Below, piece after piece: positions 19,313 through 32,583 of a stretch of DNA of 54,477 nt. The notes beneath the pieces are model-generated. The model searched no databases and had not been told where the DNA came from. It was given only the letters and a program-made list of their open reading frames with translations. Positions within the stretch are counted from its first letter, which is position 1, and each line of letters begins with the position of its first letter. A program made the position numbers and the translations under genes. The stretch comes from Limnohabitans sp. (lineage in GTDB: Bacteria > Pseudomonadota > Gammaproteobacteria > Burkholderiales > Burkholderiaceae_C): positions 1 through 54,477 of the forward strand of contig JAJTDK010000036.1 of assembly GCA_021300495.1 (NCBI GenBank), in the 5' to 3' direction.

Positions 19313-22300
19313 ATGAACGCTCCCTTGCCTGAACATTTGCGCCAAGCACTGGCCAATGTCACCCTTGACGACAAATACAGCCTGAAATCAGGTAGAGCCT
19401 TCATGAGCGGCGTTCAAGCCCTGGTTCGCTTGCCGATGCTGCAACAAGAGCGCGATGCCTTGGCTGGCAAAAGAACTGGCGCTTTGATCAGCGGCTACCG
19501 TGGCTCGCCTTTGGGTGGTTATGACCAGGCTTTGTGGAAAGCCAAGTCTCACCTTGAAAAACATAACATCGTTTTTCAACCAGGCGTCAACGAAGAGCTC
19601 GCGGCCACAGCATTGTGGGGTACCCAGCAGTTGGGGTTTGCGCCACCAGGCAGCCAAAAACTGGATGGCGTTTTTGGCATTTGGTATGGCAAGGGGCCCG
19701 GAGTAGACCGCTGCTCTGATGTTTTCAAACATGCCAACATGGCGGGCACCACGGCTTGGGGCGGCGTCTTGGCCGTCGCTGGTGACGATCACATTGCCAA
19801 AAGCTCTACAGCAGCGCACCAAAGCGACCATATTTTCAAGGCCTGTGGCCTGCCAGTGTTCTTTCCTGCTTCTGTTCAGGACGTGTTGGATTTGGGTGTT
19901 CACGCCATTGCGCTAAGCCGTTTTGCTGGCGTCTGGTCTGGCATGAAAACCATTCAAGAAATTGTTGAGTCGAGCGCAACGGCCGACATCAATGCCGATC
20001 GGGTCAAGATTGTTTTGCCTGAGTTTGAAATGCCCCCTGGCGGCGTTCACATTCGGTGGCCTGATGCGGCCCTTGATCAAGAAGCCCGCTTGTTTGACTA
20101 CAAATGGTATGCCGCACTGGCCTACATTCGCGCCAATCGTTTGAACCACAACGTCATAGAAGGCCCCAATGACCGCTACGGCATCATGGCCAGTGGCAAG
20201 GCCTACAACGATACAAGACAAGCCCTGGTTGATCTAGGTTTAGACACCGATACTTGCCAGCGACTGGGTATTCGGGTTCACAAGGTATCGGTTGTTTGGC
20301 CTTTAGAGGCTCAAAGCACACGGGAGTTTGCCAAGGGCCTGAAAGAGATTTTGGTGGTTGAAGAAAAACGTCAAATCATTGAATACCAACTAAAGGAAGA
20401 GCTTTACAACTGGCCCGATTCACAGCGCCCGCGCATTGTGGGTAAGTTTGATGAACTCGAAGGCGATGACTCCGGCGGCGAGTGGTCTGTACCCAATCCT
20501 ATGGCGCATCGACTGCTTCGCGCCAATGCTGACCTCACACCCACCTTGATTGCCAAGGCTCTGGCCAAGCGACTCAAAAAACTTGATTTGCCCTCTGATG
20601 TGTTGGCACGCATAGATGCTCTGCTAGAGACCATCGACGCCAAGGAGCGCGCACAAAACAGTTTGGTTCTCAATCCATCGGCAGACCGCATGCCTTGGTT
20701 CTGCTCTGGTTGTCCCCACAACACCAGCACAAAAGTTCCCGAAGGCTCGCGGGCCATGGCGGGCATTGGCTGCCACTTTATGAGCGTTTGGATGGACCGC
20801 AGCACCGTTGGCTTTACGCAAATGGGCGGTGAGGGTACCCCTTGGATTGGCCAGCAACACTTCAGCAATGAAAAACATGTGTTTGCCAACATTGGCGATG
20901 GCACTTATTTTCACAGTGGCATCTTGGCCATCCGTCAGAGCATTGCCGCAGGCGTGAACATCACCTACAAAATTTTGTACAACGACGCGGTTGCCATGAC
21001 GGGTGGTCAGCGGGTTGGCGAACGTGCTGAAGGACACACGGTTGTTCAAATTGCACAAAGCATGCGTGCAGAAGGTGCCATCGTGATCAAAGTGGTCACA
21101 GATGAACCCGAAAAATACGACGGCATTGCTTTGGCCGATGGCGTGTTGGTTCACCACCGCGATGAACTCGATGCCATTCAGCGTGAACTGCGCGAAGTCA
21201 AAGGTTGTACCGTCATTATTTATGACCAAACGTGCGCTACTGAAAAGCGCCGTCGCCGCAAGCGCGGCACCATGGTTGATCCGGCCGTTCGCGTGATGAT
21301 CAATGAGCTGGTGTGTGAAGGCTGTGGCGATTGTGGTGTTCAATCCAATTGTTTGTCTGTTGAACCGCTCGAAACTGAATTTGGTCGCAAGCGAACCATC
21401 AATCAAAATACCTGCAACAAAGACACCAGTTGCCTCAAAGGTTTTTGCCCCAGTTTCATCAGCATCGAAGGGGGTCAACTTAAAAAGAAATCCAAAGAAC
21501 AGAAGTTCAGTTGGGATTCTTTGCCCGCTTTGCCCTTGCCAGTGGTACCCAATTTAGACAATGTGCATCAGCCCTATGGCGTCGTCGTTGCAGGTGTTGG
21601 CGGTACAGGTGTCATCACCATTGGTCAGCTTTTGGGCATGGCAGCACACTTAGACGGTCTTGGCATCGTGACACAAGATTCTGCTGGTTTGGCGCAAAAG
21701 GGCGGTGCAACTTGGAGCCATGTTTTATTGGCAAAACACCAAGATCACATTCAAACCACACGCGTGAGCATGGCAGCGGCTGATTTAATTTTGGGCTGTG
21801 ATCCCATTGTGGCCGCTGGCAAAGAAACTTTGTCTAGGATGATGGCAGGGCGAACTCACGTTGCTTTGAATTCTCACAGCACACCCACTGCTGAGTTTGT
21901 TAAGAACACACAGTGGCAAAACCCAGCCGACAGTTGTGCATCTGAAATTGCTTCTGCCGTTGGCATTCAAGGCTTGGCTTCTTTTGATGCTGACCATCTT
22001 TCTTCTCAATTGATGGGTGATACGATTTACATCAATCCCATGCTTCTGGGTTATGCCTGGCAAAAAGGCTGGGTGCCTTTGAGCCTTGATGCTTTGAAGC
22101 GTGCCATCGAACTCAATGAAGTGGCTGTTGCGCAAAACCTAGCTGCCTTTGAATGGGGACGCCATGCAGCGCATCAATTGCCAGCCGTTCAAGCTTTGTT
22201 AAAACCACAGCAAATCATTCACTTCAAAAAACGCGACAGTTTAGAAGACTTGATTGCCACACGCGTCGATTTTTTAACAGCGTATCAAAATGCTGCATAC

Positions 22301-22867
22301 GCCAAACACTACGAAAATTTTGTTTTGAAAGTCAAGGCCAAAGAAAGTACTTTTGGCTCATCGTTGCTGACAGAAACAGTTGCCCGCCAGTTGTTCAAAT
22401 TAATGGCTTACAAAGATGAGTACGAAGTCGCCCGCTTGCATACCGACAAACAGTTCCTAGAACGCGTTAAAACCCAGTTTGAAGGCGATTTCAAGGTTTT
22501 CTACCACTTAGCCCCACCCCTCCTTGCCAAACGCAATGAGAAGGGCCAGCTCATTAAACAAAAAATGAGCCCTCACATGTTGTTGGCATTCAAGTTTTTG
22601 GCTCAGTTTAAATTCTTGCGTGGCACAGCCTTGGATATTTTTGGTCGCACCGAAGAAAGGCAGACTGAACGTGCGCTGATTCAGGAGTACAAGGATGCCA
22701 TCGATGAATTATTGGTGTCTCTGAAATCAGAGAACCTTGCCTTGGCCGTCAAAATGGCCAACGTGACTGAACAAGTCAAAGGTTTTGGTCATGTGAAAGA
22801 AAAACATTTAGCGGCTGTCATGGTGCAGTGGCAAAACTGCATGGATGCATTCAGAAAAGCAATTTAA
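19313..22867 (+). CDS. Indolepyruvate ferredoxin oxidoreductase family protein (fused alpha+beta/gamma)
   Basis: 1184 residues, typical of the fused proteobacterial form. An N-terminal pyrimidine-binding region (LISGYRGSPLGGYD) is followed by a TPP-binding core (GIGCHFM, NIGDGTYFHSG, NDAVAMTGGQ) and a cysteine cluster for iron-sulfur centres (CEGCGDCGVQSNC then NKDTSCLKGFCPSF). The C-terminal gamma-type domain has GVGGTGVITIGQLLGMAA. It oxidatively decarboxylates an aryl- or branched-chain 2-oxo acid to the acyl-CoA with ferredoxin. In Burkholderiales it is usually linked to amino-acid breakdown. It stands alone, 48 bases after mltA, and its 3' end borders the candidate origin. Confidence 0.93.
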   Translation: MNAPLPEHLRQALANVTLDDKYSLKSGRAFMSGVQALVRLPMLQQERDALAGKRTGALISGYRGSPLGGYDQALWKAKSHLEKHNIVFQPGVNEELAATALWGTQQLGFAPPGSQKLDGVFGIWYGKGPGVDRCSDVFKHANMAGTTAWGGVLAVAGDDHIAKSSTAAHQSDHIFKACGLPVFFPASVQDVLDLGVHAIALSRFAGVWSGMKTIQEIVESSATADINADRVKIVLPEFEMPPGGVHIRWPDAALDQEARLFDYKWYAALAYIRANRLNHNVIEGPNDRYGIMASGKAYNDTRQALVDLGLDTDTCQRLGIRVHKVSVVWPLEAQSTREFAKGLKEILVVEEKRQIIEYQLKEELYNWPDSQRPRIVGKFDELEGDDSGGEWSVPNPMAHRLLRANADLTPTLIAKALAKRLKKLDLPSDVLARIDALLETIDAKERAQNSLVLNPSADRMPWFCSGCPHNTSTKVPEGSRAMAGIGCHFMSVWMDRSTVGFTQMGGEGTPWIGQQHFSNEKHVFANIGDGTYFHSGILAIRQSIAAGVNITYKILYNDAVAMTGGQRVGERAEGHTVVQIAQSMRAEGAIVIKVVTDEPEKYDGIALADGVLVHHRDELDAIQRELREVKGCTVIIYDQTCATEKRRRRKRGTMVDPAVRVMINELVCEGCGDCGVQSNCLSVEPLETEFGRKRTINQNTCNKDTSCLKGFCPSFISIEGGQLKKKSKEQKFSWDSLPALPLPVVPNLDNVHQPYGVVVAGVGGTGVITIGQLLGMAAHLDGLGIVTQDSAGLAQKGGATWSHVLLAKHQDHIQTTRVSMAAADLILGCDPIVAAGKETLSRMMAGRTHVALNSHSTPTAEFVKNTQWQNPADSCASEIASAVGIQGLASFDADHLSSQLMGDTIYINPMLLGYAWQKGWVPLSLDALKRAIELNEVAVAQNLAAFEWGRHAAHQLPAVQALLKPQQIIHFKKRDSLEDLIATRVDFLTAYQNAAYAKHYENFVLKVKAKESTFGSSLLTETVARQLFKLMAYKDEYEVARLHTDKQFLERVKTQFEGDFKVFYHLAPPLLAKRNEKGQLIKQKMSPHMLLAFKFLAQFKFLRGTALDIFGRTEERQTERALIQEYKDAIDELLVSLKSENLALAVKMANVTEQVKGFGHVKEKHLAAVMVQWQNCMDAFRKAI

Positions 22868-22917
22868 TTTGAATTCTGAGTTTGTCTTTGTATTCTTCTT
22901 TTATAGAGATTAATACA

Positions 22918-22929
22918 TAGTAGTAGTAG
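22918..22929. other. DnaA-trio element (TAG x4)
   Basis: Four consecutive TAG triplets on the plus strand (CTA on the minus strand), followed after one base by TAA. DnaA-trios are known to guide DnaA from double-stranded boxes onto one strand during melting. The element lies 18 bases from the DnaA box at 22948 and borders the AT-rich tract, as in known origins. Confidence 0.62.
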
Positions 22930-22934
22930 ATAAG

Positions 22935-22967
22935 GAGAGGCTTGTTCTGTGGACAAGTCTCTTTTTT
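22935..22967 (+). terminator. Rho-independent terminator after the ketoacid oxidoreductase gene
   Basis: GAGAGGCTTGT (22935-22945) pairs with ACAAGTCTCTT (22953-22963), with two or three G-T pairs and a 7-base loop. It is followed by a run of six T at 22962-22967. It would end transcription 70 bases after the 22867 stop and keep transcripts out of the origin. Confidence 0.6.
22948..22956 (-). other. DnaA box, one mismatch (TTGTCCACA)
   Basis: TGTGGACAA on the plus strand is TTGTCCACA on the minus strand, one change from TTATCCACA. It is oriented towards the DnaA-trio. It also lies in the loop and right arm of the terminator hairpin at 22935-22967. Confidence 0.6.
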
Positions 22968-23065
22968 CTTTATAGATCAATGCATTGAATCATTTTGAAG
23001 GGTGTGCACGGCGCTGCTACTGCTGTGTCACTCAAATATGAATAACTTTAGAAAAATAAAATAAC

Positions 23066-23074
23066 TGTGGATAA
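23066..23074 (-). other. DnaA box, perfect consensus
   Basis: TGTGGATAA on the plus strand is an exact TTATCCACA on the minus strand. With the GTTATCC at 23082-23088 it forms a 7-bp inverted repeat (GGATAAC, 6-base spacer, GTTATCC), so a weaker box faces it. Confidence 0.7.
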
Positions 23075-23093
23075 CTTGCTTGTTATCCCAAAA

Positions 23094-23102
23094 CTATCCA
23101 CA
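23094..23102 (+). other. DnaA box, one mismatch (CTATCCACA)
   Basis: CTATCCACA differs from TTATCCACA only at the first base and lies 19 bases from the perfect box, in the opposite orientation. A more degenerate site (TTATCCCAA, 23083-23091) lies between them. Confidence 0.55.
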
Positions 23103-23165
23103 TGTTTATTCGTTGACAAAATGTGCATGTTCAATGATTGATTTCAATGGTTTAAAACCAGCTGT

Positions 23166-24047
23166 TTATGTACCGAAAAGACCCGCTCTGAAATCATCTA
23201 CTGCTTGTATCAGTTCTTCACGCGTATTCATGACAAATGGCCCATGTTGTGCAATGGGTTCGTTCAGAGGCTGGCCTGCTATCAAAAGAATTTTGGCACC
23301 AGGTGAGCCTTCAATGACAACACCATTTCCTTCATTTTGAAGGATGGCCATTCTGTGTAAATTAACGGCTGTTTTTGCGCTGTCACTGATCACATTGACG
23401 TGACCTCGATAAACAAACAAGAAGGCGTTGTGAAGGGGGTTCAATCTTTGTTGAAAACAACTCTCAGCTTCAAAATGGATGTCTAAGTAAAGTGGGTTGG
23501 TAGGAAACAAGTCAATGGGCCTGTGAATTGCACCTTGTACACCGTTGGATTCACCTGAAATGACCCGGACCCTTATGGACTCATGGGGCTGGTATTCTGG
23601 GATGGTGTCACTTTGAATATCTTCATAAGCAGGCGAGCACATTTTTTGGGAGGAAGCTAAGTTCAGCCAAAGCTGAAACCCCTCCATCACACCTTCTTCT
23701 TGTTCAGGCATTTCACTGTGAACAACGCCTCTACCGGCCGTCATCCATTGAACACCACCATTTTGTAAAAGTCCCTCGTGACCGGCACTGTCCTTGTGCC
23801 GCATTCTTCCTGCAATCATGTACGTGACGGTTTCAAAACCCCGATGGGGATGATCTGGAAAACCACCACCGTAATCATTGGGATCATCGCTGCCGAAGTT
23901 GTCAAGCATCAAGAAGGGATCGAGCCGCCTCTGGTGAGCTTGCGTTAAAACGCGCGTGAGTTTGACGCCATCACCGTCTCGAGTGGCGTGGCCCATGACT
24001 TGTTGTTCAACGCGGCGACCCAGAAAAGCTTTGTTGTTTGAGCTCAT
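23166..24047 (-). CDS. Pirin family protein
   Basis: 293 residues with the two-cupin architecture. The first cupin carries the metal-binding cluster HPHRGFETVTYM (His66 and His68) followed by GGVQWMTAGRGVVHSEMP, both diagnostic for pirin. Bacterial pirins include quercetinase-like dioxygenases and enzyme-binding regulators, and the exact role here is open. It lies ten bases after the damaged old yellow enzyme gene on the same strand, so the two were probably an operon. Its 3' end faces the candidate origin. Confidence 0.93.
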   Translation of the reverse strand: MSSNNKAFLGRRVEQQVMGHATRDGDGVKLTRVLTQAHQRRLDPFLMLDNFGSDDPNDYGGGFPDHPHRGFETVTYMIAGRMRHKDSAGHEGLLQNGGVQWMTAGRGVVHSEMPEQEEGVMEGFQLWLNLASSQKMCSPAYEDIQSDTIPEYQPHESIRVRVISGESNGVQGAIHRPIDLFPTNPLYLDIHFEAESCFQQRLNPLHNAFLFVYRGHVNVISDSAKTAVNLHRMAILQNEGNGVVIEGSPGAKILLIAGQPLNEPIAQHGPFVMNTREELIQAVDDFRAGLFGT

Positions 24048-26934: not shown

Positions 26935-28374
26935 GCGCGAGCAGCGCCGACCTTACGGTGATGGACTGGTGATTTGATGCTTTACCCACAAGAATTTGAT
27001 GTGATCGTTGTCGGCGGCGGCCATGCTGGCACCGAGGCCGCCTTGGCGTCTGCGCGCATGGGTTGTAAAACCCTCTTGTTGACGCACAACATTGAGACCT
27101 TAGGTCAGATGAGTTGCAACCCCTCTATTGGCGGCATTGGCAAAGGCCACCTGCTGAAAGAGGTCGATGCTTTGGGTGGCGCCATGGCCATCGCAACGGA
27201 CGAGGGCGGCATTCAGTTTCGCATTTTGAACAGCTCCAAAGGCCCTGCTGTGCGCGCTACGCGTGCCCAAGCAGACCGAATTTTGTACAAGGCGGCCATT
27301 CGCCGTCGTCTCGAGAACCAAGAAAACCTGTGGTTATTTCAGCAGGCTGTTGACGACCTCATGGTTGAGTCAAACGGCACAGAAGACCGTGTGGTGGGGG
27401 CTGTGACGCAAGTGGGCGTTCGCTTCCGATCAAAAACAGTGGTCTTAACGGCAGGCACGTTCCTAGATGGCAAGATCCATGTGGGTCTGGAAAATTATTC
27501 GGCCGGTCGGGCAGGAGACCCCCCTGCGGTGAGTTTGTCTGCTCGCTTGAAAGAACTTAAGTTGCCACAAGGCCGTTTGAAAACGGGTACACCACCGCGC
27601 TTAGATGGCCGCACCATTGACTTTTCAAAGTGCCAAGAACAGCCGGGAGACGGGATGCCTGGTGGCTTGAATGCCGAGGCCGGCGTTCCCGTTTTCAGCT
27701 TCATGGGGCGCGCAGACATGCACCCTGTTCATGGGAAAAATAGAAGGTGTTGGCCCAAGGTACTGCCCAAGCGTGGAAGACAAGATCAATCGGTTTGCCG
27801 ACAAGGACAGCCATCAGATTTTTTTAGAGCCCGAAGGTCTCACGACGCACGAGTTTTACCCCAACGGCATTTCAACCAGTTTGCCATTTGACATTCAATA
27901 CGCATTGGTCCGCTCCATGAAGGGGCTTGAGAATGCGCACATTCTGAGACCTGGCTATGCCATTGAATATGACTATTTTGACCCGCGCTCGTTGAAGAGC
28001 AGTTTTGAAACGCGCCAAATTGGCGGACTCTTTTTTGCGGGACAAATCAACGGTACAACGGGTTACGAAGAAGCGGCCTCGCAGGGCTTATTTGCTGGCA
28101 TCAATGCGGCGCTTCAATGTCGATCCTTGTCTGGTGTTGGCAATGACATGGGCGGCTCTTGGTTGCCCAGCCGCGACCAAGCTTATTTAGGTGTGTTGGT
28201 CGATGACCTTATTACCAAGGGCGTGACAGAGCCGTATCGCATGTTTACCAGCAGGGCAGAGTTCAGGTTGCAGCTGCGGGAAGATAACGCAGACATGCGC
28301 TTGACAGAGCTTGGCCGTCAAATAGGCTTGGTAGACGATGAGCGCTGGACTTCCTTTTGCACAAAGCGGGAAGC

Positions 28375-28390
28375 TGTTTCACGTGAAACA
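28375..28390. other. parS: parS centromere site 1 (perfect)
   Basis: TGTTTCACGTGAAACA is the exact 16-bp bacterial parS palindrome bound by ParB. It lies inside mnmG, where it encodes VSRET in the working frame. Confidence 0.95.
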
Positions 28391-28563
28391 GAGCGTCTGA
28401 AGTCTACGTGGGTCAATCCAAAAAACCTTCCCGAGGCGGAGTCTGCGCGTGTGTTGGGCAAGTCTATTGAGCATGAGCACAACCTGTTTGACTTGCTCCG
28501 TCGACCCGGCGTGAGTTATGAAGGCCTGATGTCCTTGGATGCAGGACGGTTTGTTGCAACAGC

Positions 28564-28579
28564 TGTTTCACGTGAAACA
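28564..28579. other. parS: parS centromere site 2 (perfect)
   Basis: A second exact TGTTTCACGTGAAACA, 189 bases after the first and in the same mnmG reading frame, again encoding AVSRET. Paired parS sites within mnmG next to parAB fit a chromosomal centromere near the origin. Confidence 0.95.
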
Positions 28580-28929
28580 TTGGGCGATCTCACAACATCC
28601 GTGATTGAACAGGTTGAGATTGCTGCCAAGTATTCTGGGTACATTGACCGCCAGAGGGTTGAGGTAGAGCGGGCCGCACATTTTGAAAATCTGAAGTTGC
28701 CCGCAAAACTTGACTACCTTCTGGTCTCCTCTTTGTCGATCGAGGCCCGACAAACCTTGTCCAAGCATCGTCCAGAAACCCTGGGCATGGCGTCCCGAAT
28801 TTCTGGAATTACCCCTGCAACCATTTCCTTGTTGCTGATTTATCTCAAAAGGGGTGGTTTTAAGGAGTTCGTTTCGGTCAAGCCCGAAGTGGCGGAGTCG
28901 GTTGCGGAAGGCCTGGAGAGTTTGGCGCC

Positions 28930-29640
28930 ATGACCGCCGCGGCCGAAGTGCCTGAAGTGGCGCTTCTTCAAGCGCTTTCCGTGGGCGGAAAGGCCTTAGG
29001 GCTGAATGTGACAGAGGCTCAGCAGCGACAGTTGTTGAGCTACATGGCGCTCATTCAAAAGTGGAACAAAGTCTATAACCTCACTGCTTTGAAAACGCCT
29101 CAGGAAATTTTGACTCACCATTTGTTAGACAGCTTGTCCTCAATTTCTCCCTTATTTCGCTATCTTGCTCAGGGCGCAAAGGGCGTCGACCAAGAAATCG
29201 AGTTGTTGGATGTGGGTTCAGGCGGCGGTTTGCCAGGTGTGGTGATTGCCATTTGCTGTCCCAGCATCCGTGTCACATGTGTCGATACGGTTTCTAAAAA
29301 GGCGGCATTTGTGCAACAGGTTGCCGCCAGTTTAAAGTTATCTAACTTGCGCGGGCTTCATGCGCGGGTAGAAAGCTTGAAGGGGCCGTTTGACGTCGTA
29401 TGCTCCCGAGCATTTGCCTCTTTGCCAGACTTTGTAAACTGGTCGGTTGGCGCCTTGTCCGAGCAGGGCGTTTGGATGGCCATGAAGGGCAAGTTGCCCG
29501 AAGCAGAGATGGCGGCGTTGCCTTCTTTTGCAGAAGTGTTTCACGTGGAACAACTCCAGGTTCCTGGTTTGGCGGCTGATCGTTGCATGGTCTGGATGAA
29601 AAAATCAGTAACTTTGTCTACTGAAGCAAGCGCGACCTGA
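28930..29640 (+). CDS. rsmG: 16S rRNA (guanine527-N7)-methyltransferase
   Basis: 236 residues. The gene overlaps mnmG by ATGA. Family marks are [28 protein letters not shown], the SAM-binding [17 protein letters not shown] and [13 protein letters not shown]. RsmG methylates G527 of 16S rRNA in the 530 loop; loss gives low-level streptomycin resistance. The mnmG-rsmG pair upstream of parAB is a classic origin-proximal arrangement. Confidence 0.96.
29537..29552. other. parS: parS-like site 3 (one mismatch)
   Basis: TGTTTCACGTGGAACA inside rsmG differs from the parS palindrome at one base (G for A at position 12). ParB usually tolerates such changes with weaker binding. Confidence 0.75.
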
Positions 29641-30323: not shown

Positions 30324-31094
30324 ATGGCAAAGATTTTCTGTGTTGCAAATCAAAAAGGTGGTGTTGGCAAGACCACGTCAGCGGTTAACTTGGCTGCGGG
30401 CTTGGCCAAAGTGGGGCAGCGTGTTTTGTTGGTTGACCTCGATCCACAGGGCAATGCAACCATGGGTTCGGGGGTTGACAAGCGGCAGTTAGAGCTCAGT
30501 GTGTACGATGTTTTATTAGAGTCGGCCAGCATTCAAGAGGCCGCCATTTTTTCAGAAAAATGTGGCTATCACGTTTTGGGCGCCAATCGCGAATTGGCCG
30601 GTGCAGAGGTTGAACTGGTTGACCTTGAAAGGCGCGACCAACGGTTGAAGTCAGCATTGGAAGTGGCAGACAAAGACTTTGACTTTGTCTTAATTGATTG
30701 CCCGCCGTCTTTGTCCATGCTCACCTTGAATGGTTTGTGTGCCGCGCATGGCGTGATTGTGCCGATGCAGTGCGAGTATTTTGCGCTGGAGGGGCTGACC
30801 GATTTGGTGAACACCATCAAGCAAGTGCATGCCAATTTGAACCCTGATTTGAAAATCATTGGTTTGCTGCGCGTCATGTTTGATCCGCGAATTACTTTGC
30901 AACAGCAAGTGAGTGAGCAACTTAAATCGCACTTTGGAGACAAAGTTTTTAACACGGTCATTCCTCGAAATGTGCGGCTGGCAGAGGCGCCTAGCTATGG
31001 TTTGCCAGGCGTTGTGTTTGACCCTTCTGCCAAAGGCAGCCAAGCGTTTGTAGAGTTTGCCAGGGAGTTGGTACAGCGCATTCCAACGCTTTAA
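30324..31094 (+). CDS. parA: Chromosome partitioning ATPase ParA (Soj)
   Basis: 256 residues, the chromosomal ParA length without an N-terminal DNA-binding extension. Deviant Walker A is KGGVGKTTSAVNLAAG (about residue 10), then VDLDPQGNATMGSGV, Walker B VLIDCPPSLSML and IPRNVRLAEAPSYGLP. It works with ParB and parS to segregate the origin region. It starts 28 bases after lysE. Confidence 0.97.
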   Translation: MAKIFCVANQKGGVGKTTSAVNLAAGLAKVGQRVLLVDLDPQGNATMGSGVDKRQLELSVYDVLLESASIQEAAIFSEKCGYHVLGANRELAGAEVELVDLERRDQRLKSALEVADKDFDFVLIDCPPSLSMLTLNGLCAAHGVIVPMQCEYFALEGLTDLVNTIKQVHANLNPDLKIIGLLRVMFDPRITLQQQVSEQLKSHFGDKVFNTVIPRNVRLAEAPSYGLPGVVFDPSAKGSQAFVEFARELVQRIPTL

Positions 31095-31112: not shown

Positions 31113-31667
31113 ATGGAAAATCCAATAGTTCTTATATTACCGGGTTGGCAGGGAAGTGGGCCTTCACATTGGCAAAGCCTTTGGACCCGTCAATATGCTG
31201 ATCAGCTTGTAGAGCAACATGACTGGATGAGGCCACTTCGCGGCGATTGGTTGGCGCGATTGGACGATGTGATGTCCGACTTGAGTGGGCCCGTCTTCTT
31301 GGTTGCACACAGTTTGGGTTGCATTCAAGTCGCAGCTTGGGCGCAAATTTCTGCACAATGCCACAAAGTCAAAGCGGCTTTGTTGGTTGCGCCTGGCGAC
31401 GTAGAGGCCTCGCCTGTGCAAGATGTTTTTTCAAGTTGGCGTCCGATTGCTTTGACTGCGCTGCCCTTCAAATCAATTTTAATTGGCAGTGAAAACGACC
31501 CTTATTGCACCCTTGCACGTGCAGAACAGTTTGCGCTGGCCTGGGGGTCTGAGTTTTTAAACTTGGGCGAATGCGGACACGTGAACGCAGAATCAAATTT
31601 GGGTGACTGGCCTGAAGGCCGCGCCTTGTTGAATGAATTGATGAAAGAAAAAAGACATGGTGACTAA
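31113..31667 (+). CDS. RBBP9/YdeN-type alpha/beta hydrolase
   Basis: 184 residues from the ATG at 31113 (a TTG precedes it). The fold marks are LPGWQGSGPSHWQSLW, the nucleophile in VAHSLGC (Ser), the aspartate in SENDPYC and the histidine in GECGHVNAES. RBBP9/YdeN proteins are small serine hydrolases of poorly known substrate. The gene sits between parA and parB, overlapping parB by 11 bases, so it is translated within the partition operon. I recall this insertion in other Burkholderiales genomes. Confidence 0.9.
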   Translation: MENPIVLILPGWQGSGPSHWQSLWTRQYADQLVEQHDWMRPLRGDWLARLDDVMSDLSGPVFLVAHSLGCIQVAAWAQISAQCHKVKAALLVAPGDVEASPVQDVFSSWRPIALTALPFKSILIGSENDPYCTLARAEQFALAWGSEFLNLGECGHVNAESNLGDWPEGRALLNELMKEKRHGD

Positions 31668-32583
31668 AAAACCAAAGGGCTTAGGCCGAGGGCTGGAAGC
31701 TTTATTGGGCCCTAAAGTGCAGGACGAACCCAGTTCGCCTCAGGCCGTTGAGGCGGCAGCCAATCGAACACCCAGTAGTTTGTCTTTGAGTGAGTTGGTG
31801 CCAGGCATGTACCAACCTCGAACACGAATGGACGAGGGCGCACTCTATGAGTTGGCCGAGTCCATCAAGGCTCAAGGCATCATGCAGCCCATCTTGGTTC
31901 GCAAGTTAAGTGATGGCCCCAATGCCGGCAAGTATGAAATCATTGCAGGGGAACGTCGTTTTCGCGCATCGCGACTGGCGGGTTTGAATGAGGTGCCAGT
32001 TTTGGTTCGCGATGTGCCCAATGAAGCGGCAGCGGCCATGGCCTTGATTGAGAACATTCAACGTGAAGACCTCAACCCGCTTGAAGAGGCTCATGGTTTA
32101 CAGCGCCTCATCAAAGAGTTTGGACTCACCCACGAAACAGCAGCCCAGGCTGTGGGACGCTCGCGTAGTGCGGCCAGCAACTTGCTTCGTTTGTTGAACT
32201 TGGCAGAGCCCGTGCAAACCATGCTGATGGCAGGTGACATTGACATGGGTCACGCCCGGGCATTGTTGGGTTTGGACAAGGCCGCTCAAATTACAGCGGC
32301 GAATCAAATCAGCGCCAAAAAAATGTCGGTGCGCGAAGCAGAGAGTTTGGTGAAAAAACTCAGCGCAGAATTTTCTTTGGTGCAACAAAAACCGAAAAAA
32401 GAAAAATCACGCGACATCAAACGCGTTGAAGAAGAACTCTCAGACTTGCTCATGGCGCAAGTCGAAGTGCGCGTTAAAAAGCGCGTGAAGCGGCACGGCC
32501 GTTTTGAGGAAATGGGTGAGCTGTCAATCCAGTTTGGATCACTCGACGAACTCAATGGGCTGATTGACAAGCTGCGCGGTTAA
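31657..32583 (+). CDS. parB: Chromosome partitioning protein ParB (Spo0J)
   Basis: 308 residues. The N-terminal KGLGRGLEALLGPK is the ParA-interacting peptide. The CTPase and arginine-rich box follow (IIAGERRFRASRLAGL), then the central helix-turn-helix (VGRSRSAASNLLRLLNL). The C-terminal dimerisation part is rich in lysine and glutamate. ParB loads at parS and spreads as a CTP-dependent clamp. Its likely sites at 28375, 28564 and 29537 lie 2-3 kb upstream. Confidence 0.97.
   Translation: MVTKKPKGLGRGLEALLGPKVQDEPSSPQAVEAAANRTPSSLSLSELVPGMYQPRTRMDEGALYELAESIKAQGIMQPILVRKLSDGPNAGKYEIIAGERRFRASRLAGLNEVPVLVRDVPNEAAAAMALIENIQREDLNPLEEAHGLQRLIKEFGLTHETAAQAVGRSRSAASNLLRLLNLAEPVQTMLMAGDIDMGHARALLGLDKAAQITAANQISAKKMSVREAESLVKKLSAEFSLVQQKPKKEKSRDIKRVEEELSDLLMAQVEVRVKKRVKRHGRFEEMGELSIQFGSLDELNGLIDKLRG

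Follow-up and report, generated by a model that had tools for sequence, protein, structure and literature searches.

A predicted chromosomal origin away from dnaA in a Limnohabitans-group bacterium, and a family-wide origin module whose address relative to dnaA has changed

Introduction

Where does replication of the chromosome begin in a bacterium of the Limnohabitans group whose most origin-like DNA lies away from dnaA? The question is raised by a stretch of 54,477 nucleotides (the window), which is contig 131 of a metagenome-assembled genome (MAG) in 132 contigs (2.43 Mb, 86% complete). An earlier note had read an intergenic region of the window as a chromosome origin with DnaA boxes and a DnaA-trio, physically separate from dnaA. 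We asked whether the layout of this region, its conservation and the GC skew of related genomes bear this reading out, and we conclude that positions 22861-23117 are very probably the oriC of this bacterium, separate from dnaA.

Results

Layout of the element and its surroundings

Direct reading and a DnaA box scan of the window found four DnaA boxes or box-like 9-mers, a (TAG)4 run and an AT-rich tract, arranged as described. The perfect box, the two one-mismatch boxes and the four TAG triplets of the earlier note were all recovered at their positions. The neighbouring genes that it had named were identified with Pfam and the parS sites by 16-mer matches to the parS consensus. The features are as follows; A1 and R1 are the family alignment and the model derived from it, described below.

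22861-22917, no strand: AT-rich tract, presumed DNA unwinding element (instability, A+T content, conservation in close relatives)
22914-23117, plus strand: whole predicted oriC module, R1 match of 126.6 bits (the window is one of R1's 34 sequences)
22918-22933, plus strand: DnaA-trio-like block of (TAG)4, one A and TAA (sequence; block conserved in A1)
22934-22947, no strand: 14-bp spacer from TAA to box 1 (sequence; A1)
22948-22956, minus strand: DnaA box 1, one mismatch, TTGTCCACA (box scan; kept in relatives, A1)
23003-23006, plus strand: TGTG, invariant in 34 of 34 aligned origins (A1)
23037-23045, minus strand: weak box-like TTATTCATA, overlapping a conserved ATGAACAACTTT-like block (scan; A1)
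23066-23074, minus strand: DnaA box 2, perfect, TTATCCACA, starting 118 bp after the start of box 1 (box scan)
23094-23102, plus strand: DnaA box 3, one mismatch, CTATCCACA, facing box 2 at 28 bp start to start
19313-22867, plus strand: POR/TPP-domain ketoacid oxidoreductase (IOR), left neighbour (Pfam)
23166-24047, minus strand: pirin, right neighbour (Pfam)
26974-28933, plus strand: mnmG (Pfam), frame broken near 27.7-27.9 kb in the MAG assembly
28375-28390, no strand: parS, perfect 16-mer inside mnmG
28564-28579, no strand: parS, perfect 16-mer inside mnmG
28930-29640, plus strand: rsmG (Pfam)
29537-29552, no strand: parS, one mismatch, in rsmG
30324-31094, plus strand: parA (Pfam)
31657-32583, plus strand: parB (Pfam)

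The (TAG)4 run occupies 22918-22929, with 18 bases between it and the box at 22948. The TAA at 22931-22933 is one base out of frame with the run and ends 14 bases from box 1. Together, boxes 1 to 3 span 155 bp, and relative to the AT tract box 1 has the same orientation as box R1 in Escherichia coli oriC. The AT-rich tract beyond the TAG triplets has an A+T content of 0.77-0.80 (30-bp steps). By nearest-neighbour energies, 22861-22920 is the least stable 60-bp stretch in all 54 kb.

Between 24057 and 28933, mnmG is split over two overlapping frames near 27.7-27.9 kb, and the FMN-oxidoreductase and MFS genes that precede it matched their Pfam profiles only in part. Both the split frame and the partial matches probably reflect indel errors of the MAG.

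Conservation within the genus

Box-like 9-mers might gather in an AT-rich intergenic region by chance. Consistent with such a cluster, single one-mismatch boxes were not enriched across the window (37 found versus 35 expected). Among 300 windows simulated with a first-order Markov model, three had four boxes inside 160 bp, and none had (TAG)4 at any position. Conservation speaks against chance more directly. We gathered 80 loci by the IOR protein alone, without regard to the element. In 21 of them the three-box array was present with its fixed spacing, immediately behind IOR in 5 and about 2.1 kb beyond that point in 16. The array was not seen in the other 59 within the available DNA, which ended less than 300 bp past IOR in L004, L011, L035, L036 and L037. 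The family-wide module and the invariant alignment columns described in the next section likewise argue against a chance cluster, which we judge to be refuted by sequence conservation and to have a negligible probability.

The earlier note had made its reading depend on conservation in close relatives. The five closest named genomes whose DNA extends beyond the IOR stop all kept boxes 1 and 2; four of them had box 3 with at most one mismatch (two mismatches in L007), and four kept (TAG)4. A BLAST search with the 305-bp element gave a match in 51 of 90 genus genomes, several of only 40-60 bp; the 39 genomes missed by BLAST include G009, whose array is present but diverged. The element lies about 83-84 kb from dnaA in G010, G019, G007 and G048.

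A first reading of 700 bp after IOR found the element only in the closest genomes, which suggested a clade-specific relocation. This candidate was dropped because a 10-kb scan revealed 16 more loci with the same array, lying about 2.1 kb farther along.

The cell division genes minC and minE follow a related pattern. MinC and MinE were found in the same 9 of 23 genus genomes tested (chosen from the 90), and neither was found in the other 14, all of the window clade. Six of these 14 genomes have a completeness of 99% or more, and in every one of the 14 the element comes directly after IOR. By coordinates, the order is IOR, minE, minC, element in seven of the nine MinC/MinE genomes; the other two, G006 and G046, gave no element match in the 90-genome BLAST search. 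Considering that minC and minE are absent from 14 of 14 clade genomes and lie between IOR and the element in sister lineages, they seem to have been lost from beside oriC in the window clade.

A module shared by the family

We then looked for the array across the GTDB family of the window bacterium. Boxes 1, 2 and 3 occurred at fixed spacing (117-120 and 28 bp) in 73 of 145 loci, giving 61 distinct sequences; the 145 loci include same-genome duplicates, 60 loci retrieved for their similarity to the element, four 20-kb stretches and the 80 IOR loci, which alone were collected independently of the element. Alignment A1, the source of model R1 (208 positions), holds 34 of 60 module sequences, including that of the window. 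Its order is TAG block, box 1, an invariant TGTG, a AACAACTTT-like block, box 2, a TTGTTC-like stretch and box 3. Thirty-four columns are invariant over the 34 sequences, those in the boxes being favoured by the choice of rows. Within the TAG block, four columns are invariant and several more nearly so, and none of these was used to pick rows.

Model R1 matched 294 of 300 family genomes at an E-value of 0.01 or better, covering 114 of 115 genera; some matches were weak (down to E 2.4e-4), and 18 of the 294 genomes had supplied sequences to the model. The misses were G163, G175, G182, G219, G291 and G301. Each matching genome had one to four R1 places, mostly one or two, and all five Limnohabitans genomes in the set had a single place, which was this element. 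Outside the family the model is weaker: among 150 genomes drawn from the order, 49 matched at E 0.001, namely the window's own genome, four others from its family and 44 from outside it, and the best match in another family scored 49.5 bits. The element is thus a module of about 210 bp that is common to the family.

Several genomes (G339, G293, G349, G221, G125, G215, G287 and G384) contained two module matches separated by anything from a few kb to tens of kb, some in opposite orientation. Genomes with two matches possibly have bipartite or duplicated origins.

The MAG also contains perfect DnaA box pairs upstream of dnaB after rplI (L281:1846-1887) and between hemE and priA (L282:1626-1822), with genes named from sequence. 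R1 did not match at either pair. These pairs may possibly reflect DnaA control of primosome genes.

GC skew and the dnaA locus

The genome of the window is a fragmented MAG, and skew was measured in closed relatives by spaced samples plus one contiguous stretch each. In G010, a closed genome of the same genus (2,948,795 bp), the element directly follows the same IOR gene, at 343,298. The cumulative GC-skew minimum of the contiguous stretch (220-400 kb) is at 335,177; its distance is 8 kb to the element and 75 kb to dnaA (260,574). Forty samples of 20 kb were negative between 100 and 340 kb, positive from there to 1.82 Mb and negative or near zero from 1.9 Mb, except for a discordant positive sample at position 1. 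G010 therefore has one main skew switch near the element and the opposite switch near 1.8-1.9 Mb. In G009, also closed and of the same genus (3,372,992 bp; 20 samples), the minimum at 3,141,088 (contiguous 3.08-3.20 Mb) is 1 kb from the boxes at 3,139,982-3,140,137, and dnaA is at 2,852,412; discordant positive samples occurred at 2.70 and 3.08-3.12 Mb. In G152, a closed genome of another genus (4,522,913 bp; 20 samples), the skew was noisy, with a minimum at 140,532 (60-200 kb stretch), a box pair at 139,436 and dnaA at position 70. Within the window the local skew minimum is 3.5 kb off the element. The skew to the left of the element is weak, at -0.026 in the window and between -0.012 and +0.002 in L002, L005, L006 and L007. 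That G010 and G009 have their minimum close to the element instead of at dnaA is the outcome that the earlier note's proposed skew check would predict.

In the MAG, dnaA is located on a different contig (C10), flanked by rpmH-rnpA-yidD and, on the opposite side, by dnaN (neighbours named from sequence). The helix-turn-helix portion of domain IV is missing from this dnaA (C10; L001:2340-2540), whose reading frame continues into dnaN. This break is probably an assembly fault, since the dnaA C-termini were intact in all ten relatives compared.

The true origin might nonetheless be rpmH-dnaA-dnaN, with the element serving only as a DnaA-titrating or regulatory cluster. Clusters of this kind exist in E. 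coli, examples being datA and DARS. One perfect DnaA box upstream of the MAG dnaA (C10:10051) counts for this alternative and against the oriC reading. The alternative is also favoured by 37 family genomes in which an initial scoring placed the module next to dnaA. Against it, dnaA of G010 sits in negative skew, far from the minimum. In 30 Limnohabitans dnaA loci, including that of the MAG (some loci are cut by contig ends), R1 had no match even with E-values allowed up to 1, and the sole R1 place in each of the five Limnohabitans genomes is this element. The module also marks the dnaA-linked origin, because the box pair lies between dnaA and dnaN in 8 of 8 loci that contain both genes. We therefore consider a purely titrating or regulatory element very unlikely and retain the reading of the element as oriC.

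The address of the module relative to dnaA

Separation of oriC from dnaA is common in the family. Among the matches listed, the module was beside dnaA in 40 of 84 scorable genomes and away from it in 44, at distances of 8.5-611 kb. No score was given to a further 24 genomes in which the module and dnaA fall on separate contigs. For dnaA placement we took 80 of 109 genomes; those left out were mostly fragmented assemblies, plus six already read as linked. The linkage check covered a few hundred bases on each side of dnaA, the upstream side being cut where dnaA starts a contig. G303 was scored as linked, as were G185, with a second module at a contig end beside dnaA, and G195, with a second, partial module beside dnaA. 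A 13-bit match near dnaA in G336 was not counted.

On a DnaA tree of 80 of the 84 scored genomes and G152 (36 linked, 45 unlinked), the fewest address changes required were 14 (12-15 in bootstraps), and at least six changes between linked and unlinked fell on well-supported branches. This is a single-gene tree on better-filled columns, in which G286 has a very long branch. It superseded a quick DnaA tree, also single-gene, that gave 12 changes, 2 of them forced. The address of the module relative to dnaA has thus changed several times.

The flanks of 37 ori loci consisted of dnaA-dnaN in nine and minC plus minD in six, and differed otherwise, including an alpha/beta hydrolase and a QueD-like or SGNH protein (named from sequence). 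The six loci with the module directly beside minC-minD are L244, L246, L248, L288, L302 and L309, from genera g1, g37, g101 and g112.

Is the TAG block a DnaA-trio?

The earlier note had recognised the order of a basal unwinding system (BUS), with box, spacer, trio and AT tract. The order is present; of triplets that fit the formal trio rule, the window has only weak ones. The rule, as given in PMC8287927, asks for three or more consecutive NAN trios at a distance of 0-16 bp from a box that has no more than two mismatches. In the window this is found only as GAT AAG GAG at 10 bp, while the TAG run at 18 bp falls outside. Across the family, 34 of 60 module sequences fitted the rule, as did 931 of 3000 shuffles (31%), and three TAG or TAA triplets in a row under the rule occurred in only 10 of the 60.

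These results leave room for a different opening step, in which the element is oriC, the TAG repeats are not functional DnaA-trios and an E. coli-type loop hands the single strand to DnaA on distant boxes. The orientation of box 1 relative to the AT tract, shared with E. coli box R1, fits such a loop. Model R1 also weakly matches 82 bp of E. coli oriC (E 0.0018), running from the end of TTATTAG across box R1. Next to the TAG block of the window there is one clear DnaA box and no tandem pair. In Bacillus subtilis box orientation matters, reversal of box 6 or boxes 6/7 having abolished function; we counted this against our explanation of the element. In favour of a trio, the constrained columns of the TAG block owe nothing to row picking, and immediately past the block comes the least stable tract. 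We regard a loop without functional trios as a serious alternative whose chance falls somewhat below even. The TAG block probably matters, because it is well conserved. Its putative role as a DnaA-trio is only partly borne out and is a weaker proposal than the identification of the element as oriC.

Discussion

How the predicted origin would work

The location of the element, its fixed architecture, the skew switch and the instability of the duplex come directly from computation. By analogy with known systems, DnaA would bind box 1 and the convergent pair of boxes 2 and 3. An ATP-DnaA oligomer would extend leftwards from box 1 over the spacer onto the TAG-bearing strand and open the AT tract at 22861-22917, where the helicase would be loaded. 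ParB on parS, 5.3-6.4 kb away, would then move the new origins apart. As far as can be told, the mechanism would be ordinary.

If the reading is correct, the dnaA start of eight closed Limnohabitans genomes, which are described in two papers as rotated to begin at dnaA, is not their origin. Replichore, gene-dosage and growth-rate (peak-to-trough) analyses should then centre on the module. The family also offers a natural comparison of dnaA-linked and unlinked origins. Since both kinds share one architecture, one could test what is gained or lost when oriC stays next to dnaA.

Comparison with known systems

With the BUS of B. subtilis, as described in PMC8287927 and PMC6669920, the window shares the order of AT tract, TAG block, short spacer and DnaA box. 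Unlike that system, its predicted origin is not between dnaA and dnaN, has one good box instead of two and shows only weak triplets under the formal trio rule (PMC8287927).

E. coli K-12 oriC (NC_000913) also lies away from dnaA, with mnmG adjoining it there and 4 kb off here. Its box R1 is oriented as box 1, with TTATTAG 13 bp from R1. In contrast to the window, E. coli has no regular TAG block and a different box spacing, and model R1 covers only 82 bp of it. PMC6669920 notes that oriC is separate from dnaA in E. coli and links this loss of dnaA as a neighbour to the way in which E. coli oriC has diverged from the box-trio layout. At slightly less than even odds, oriC in the family of the window bacterium would be a portable module of about 210 bp that keeps its boxes, TAG block and spacing much the same while its address switches repeatedly between dnaA-dnaN and sites 8-611 kb away, beside minC in four genera. 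If so, leaving dnaA need not entail losing trio-type unwinding, contrary to the suggestion made for E. coli.

Cupriavidus metallidurans belongs to the same GTDB family as the window bacterium. On chromosome 1 of C. metallidurans CH34, the skew switches about 90 kb from dnaA, by three perfect DnaA boxes in 213 nt (PMC2864759). That origin resembles ours in lying away from dnaA and in having three boxes close together (155 bp here). The trio and the family-wide module are described only here, a difference set against the description in the available part of PMC2864759 and not against the sequence. The predicted oriC of the window is not the first of its type, since origins away from dnaA are known in E. 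coli and C. metallidurans. In the partly accessible literature on oriC, dnaA and the replication origin in Limnohabitans and Comamonadaceae, we found no description of the family module; DoriC may already place some of these origins, and the origin of Acidovorax citrulli has been predicted with Ori-Finder (PMC6595937).

The closest likeness is within the family, to the dnaA-dnaN origins of other genera (L231-L233, L249, L250 and L257), which have the same three-box spacing and a similar TAG block. Unlike the origin of the window, those adjoin dnaA. What is added to known work is a family-wide module with a repeatedly changing address relative to dnaA.
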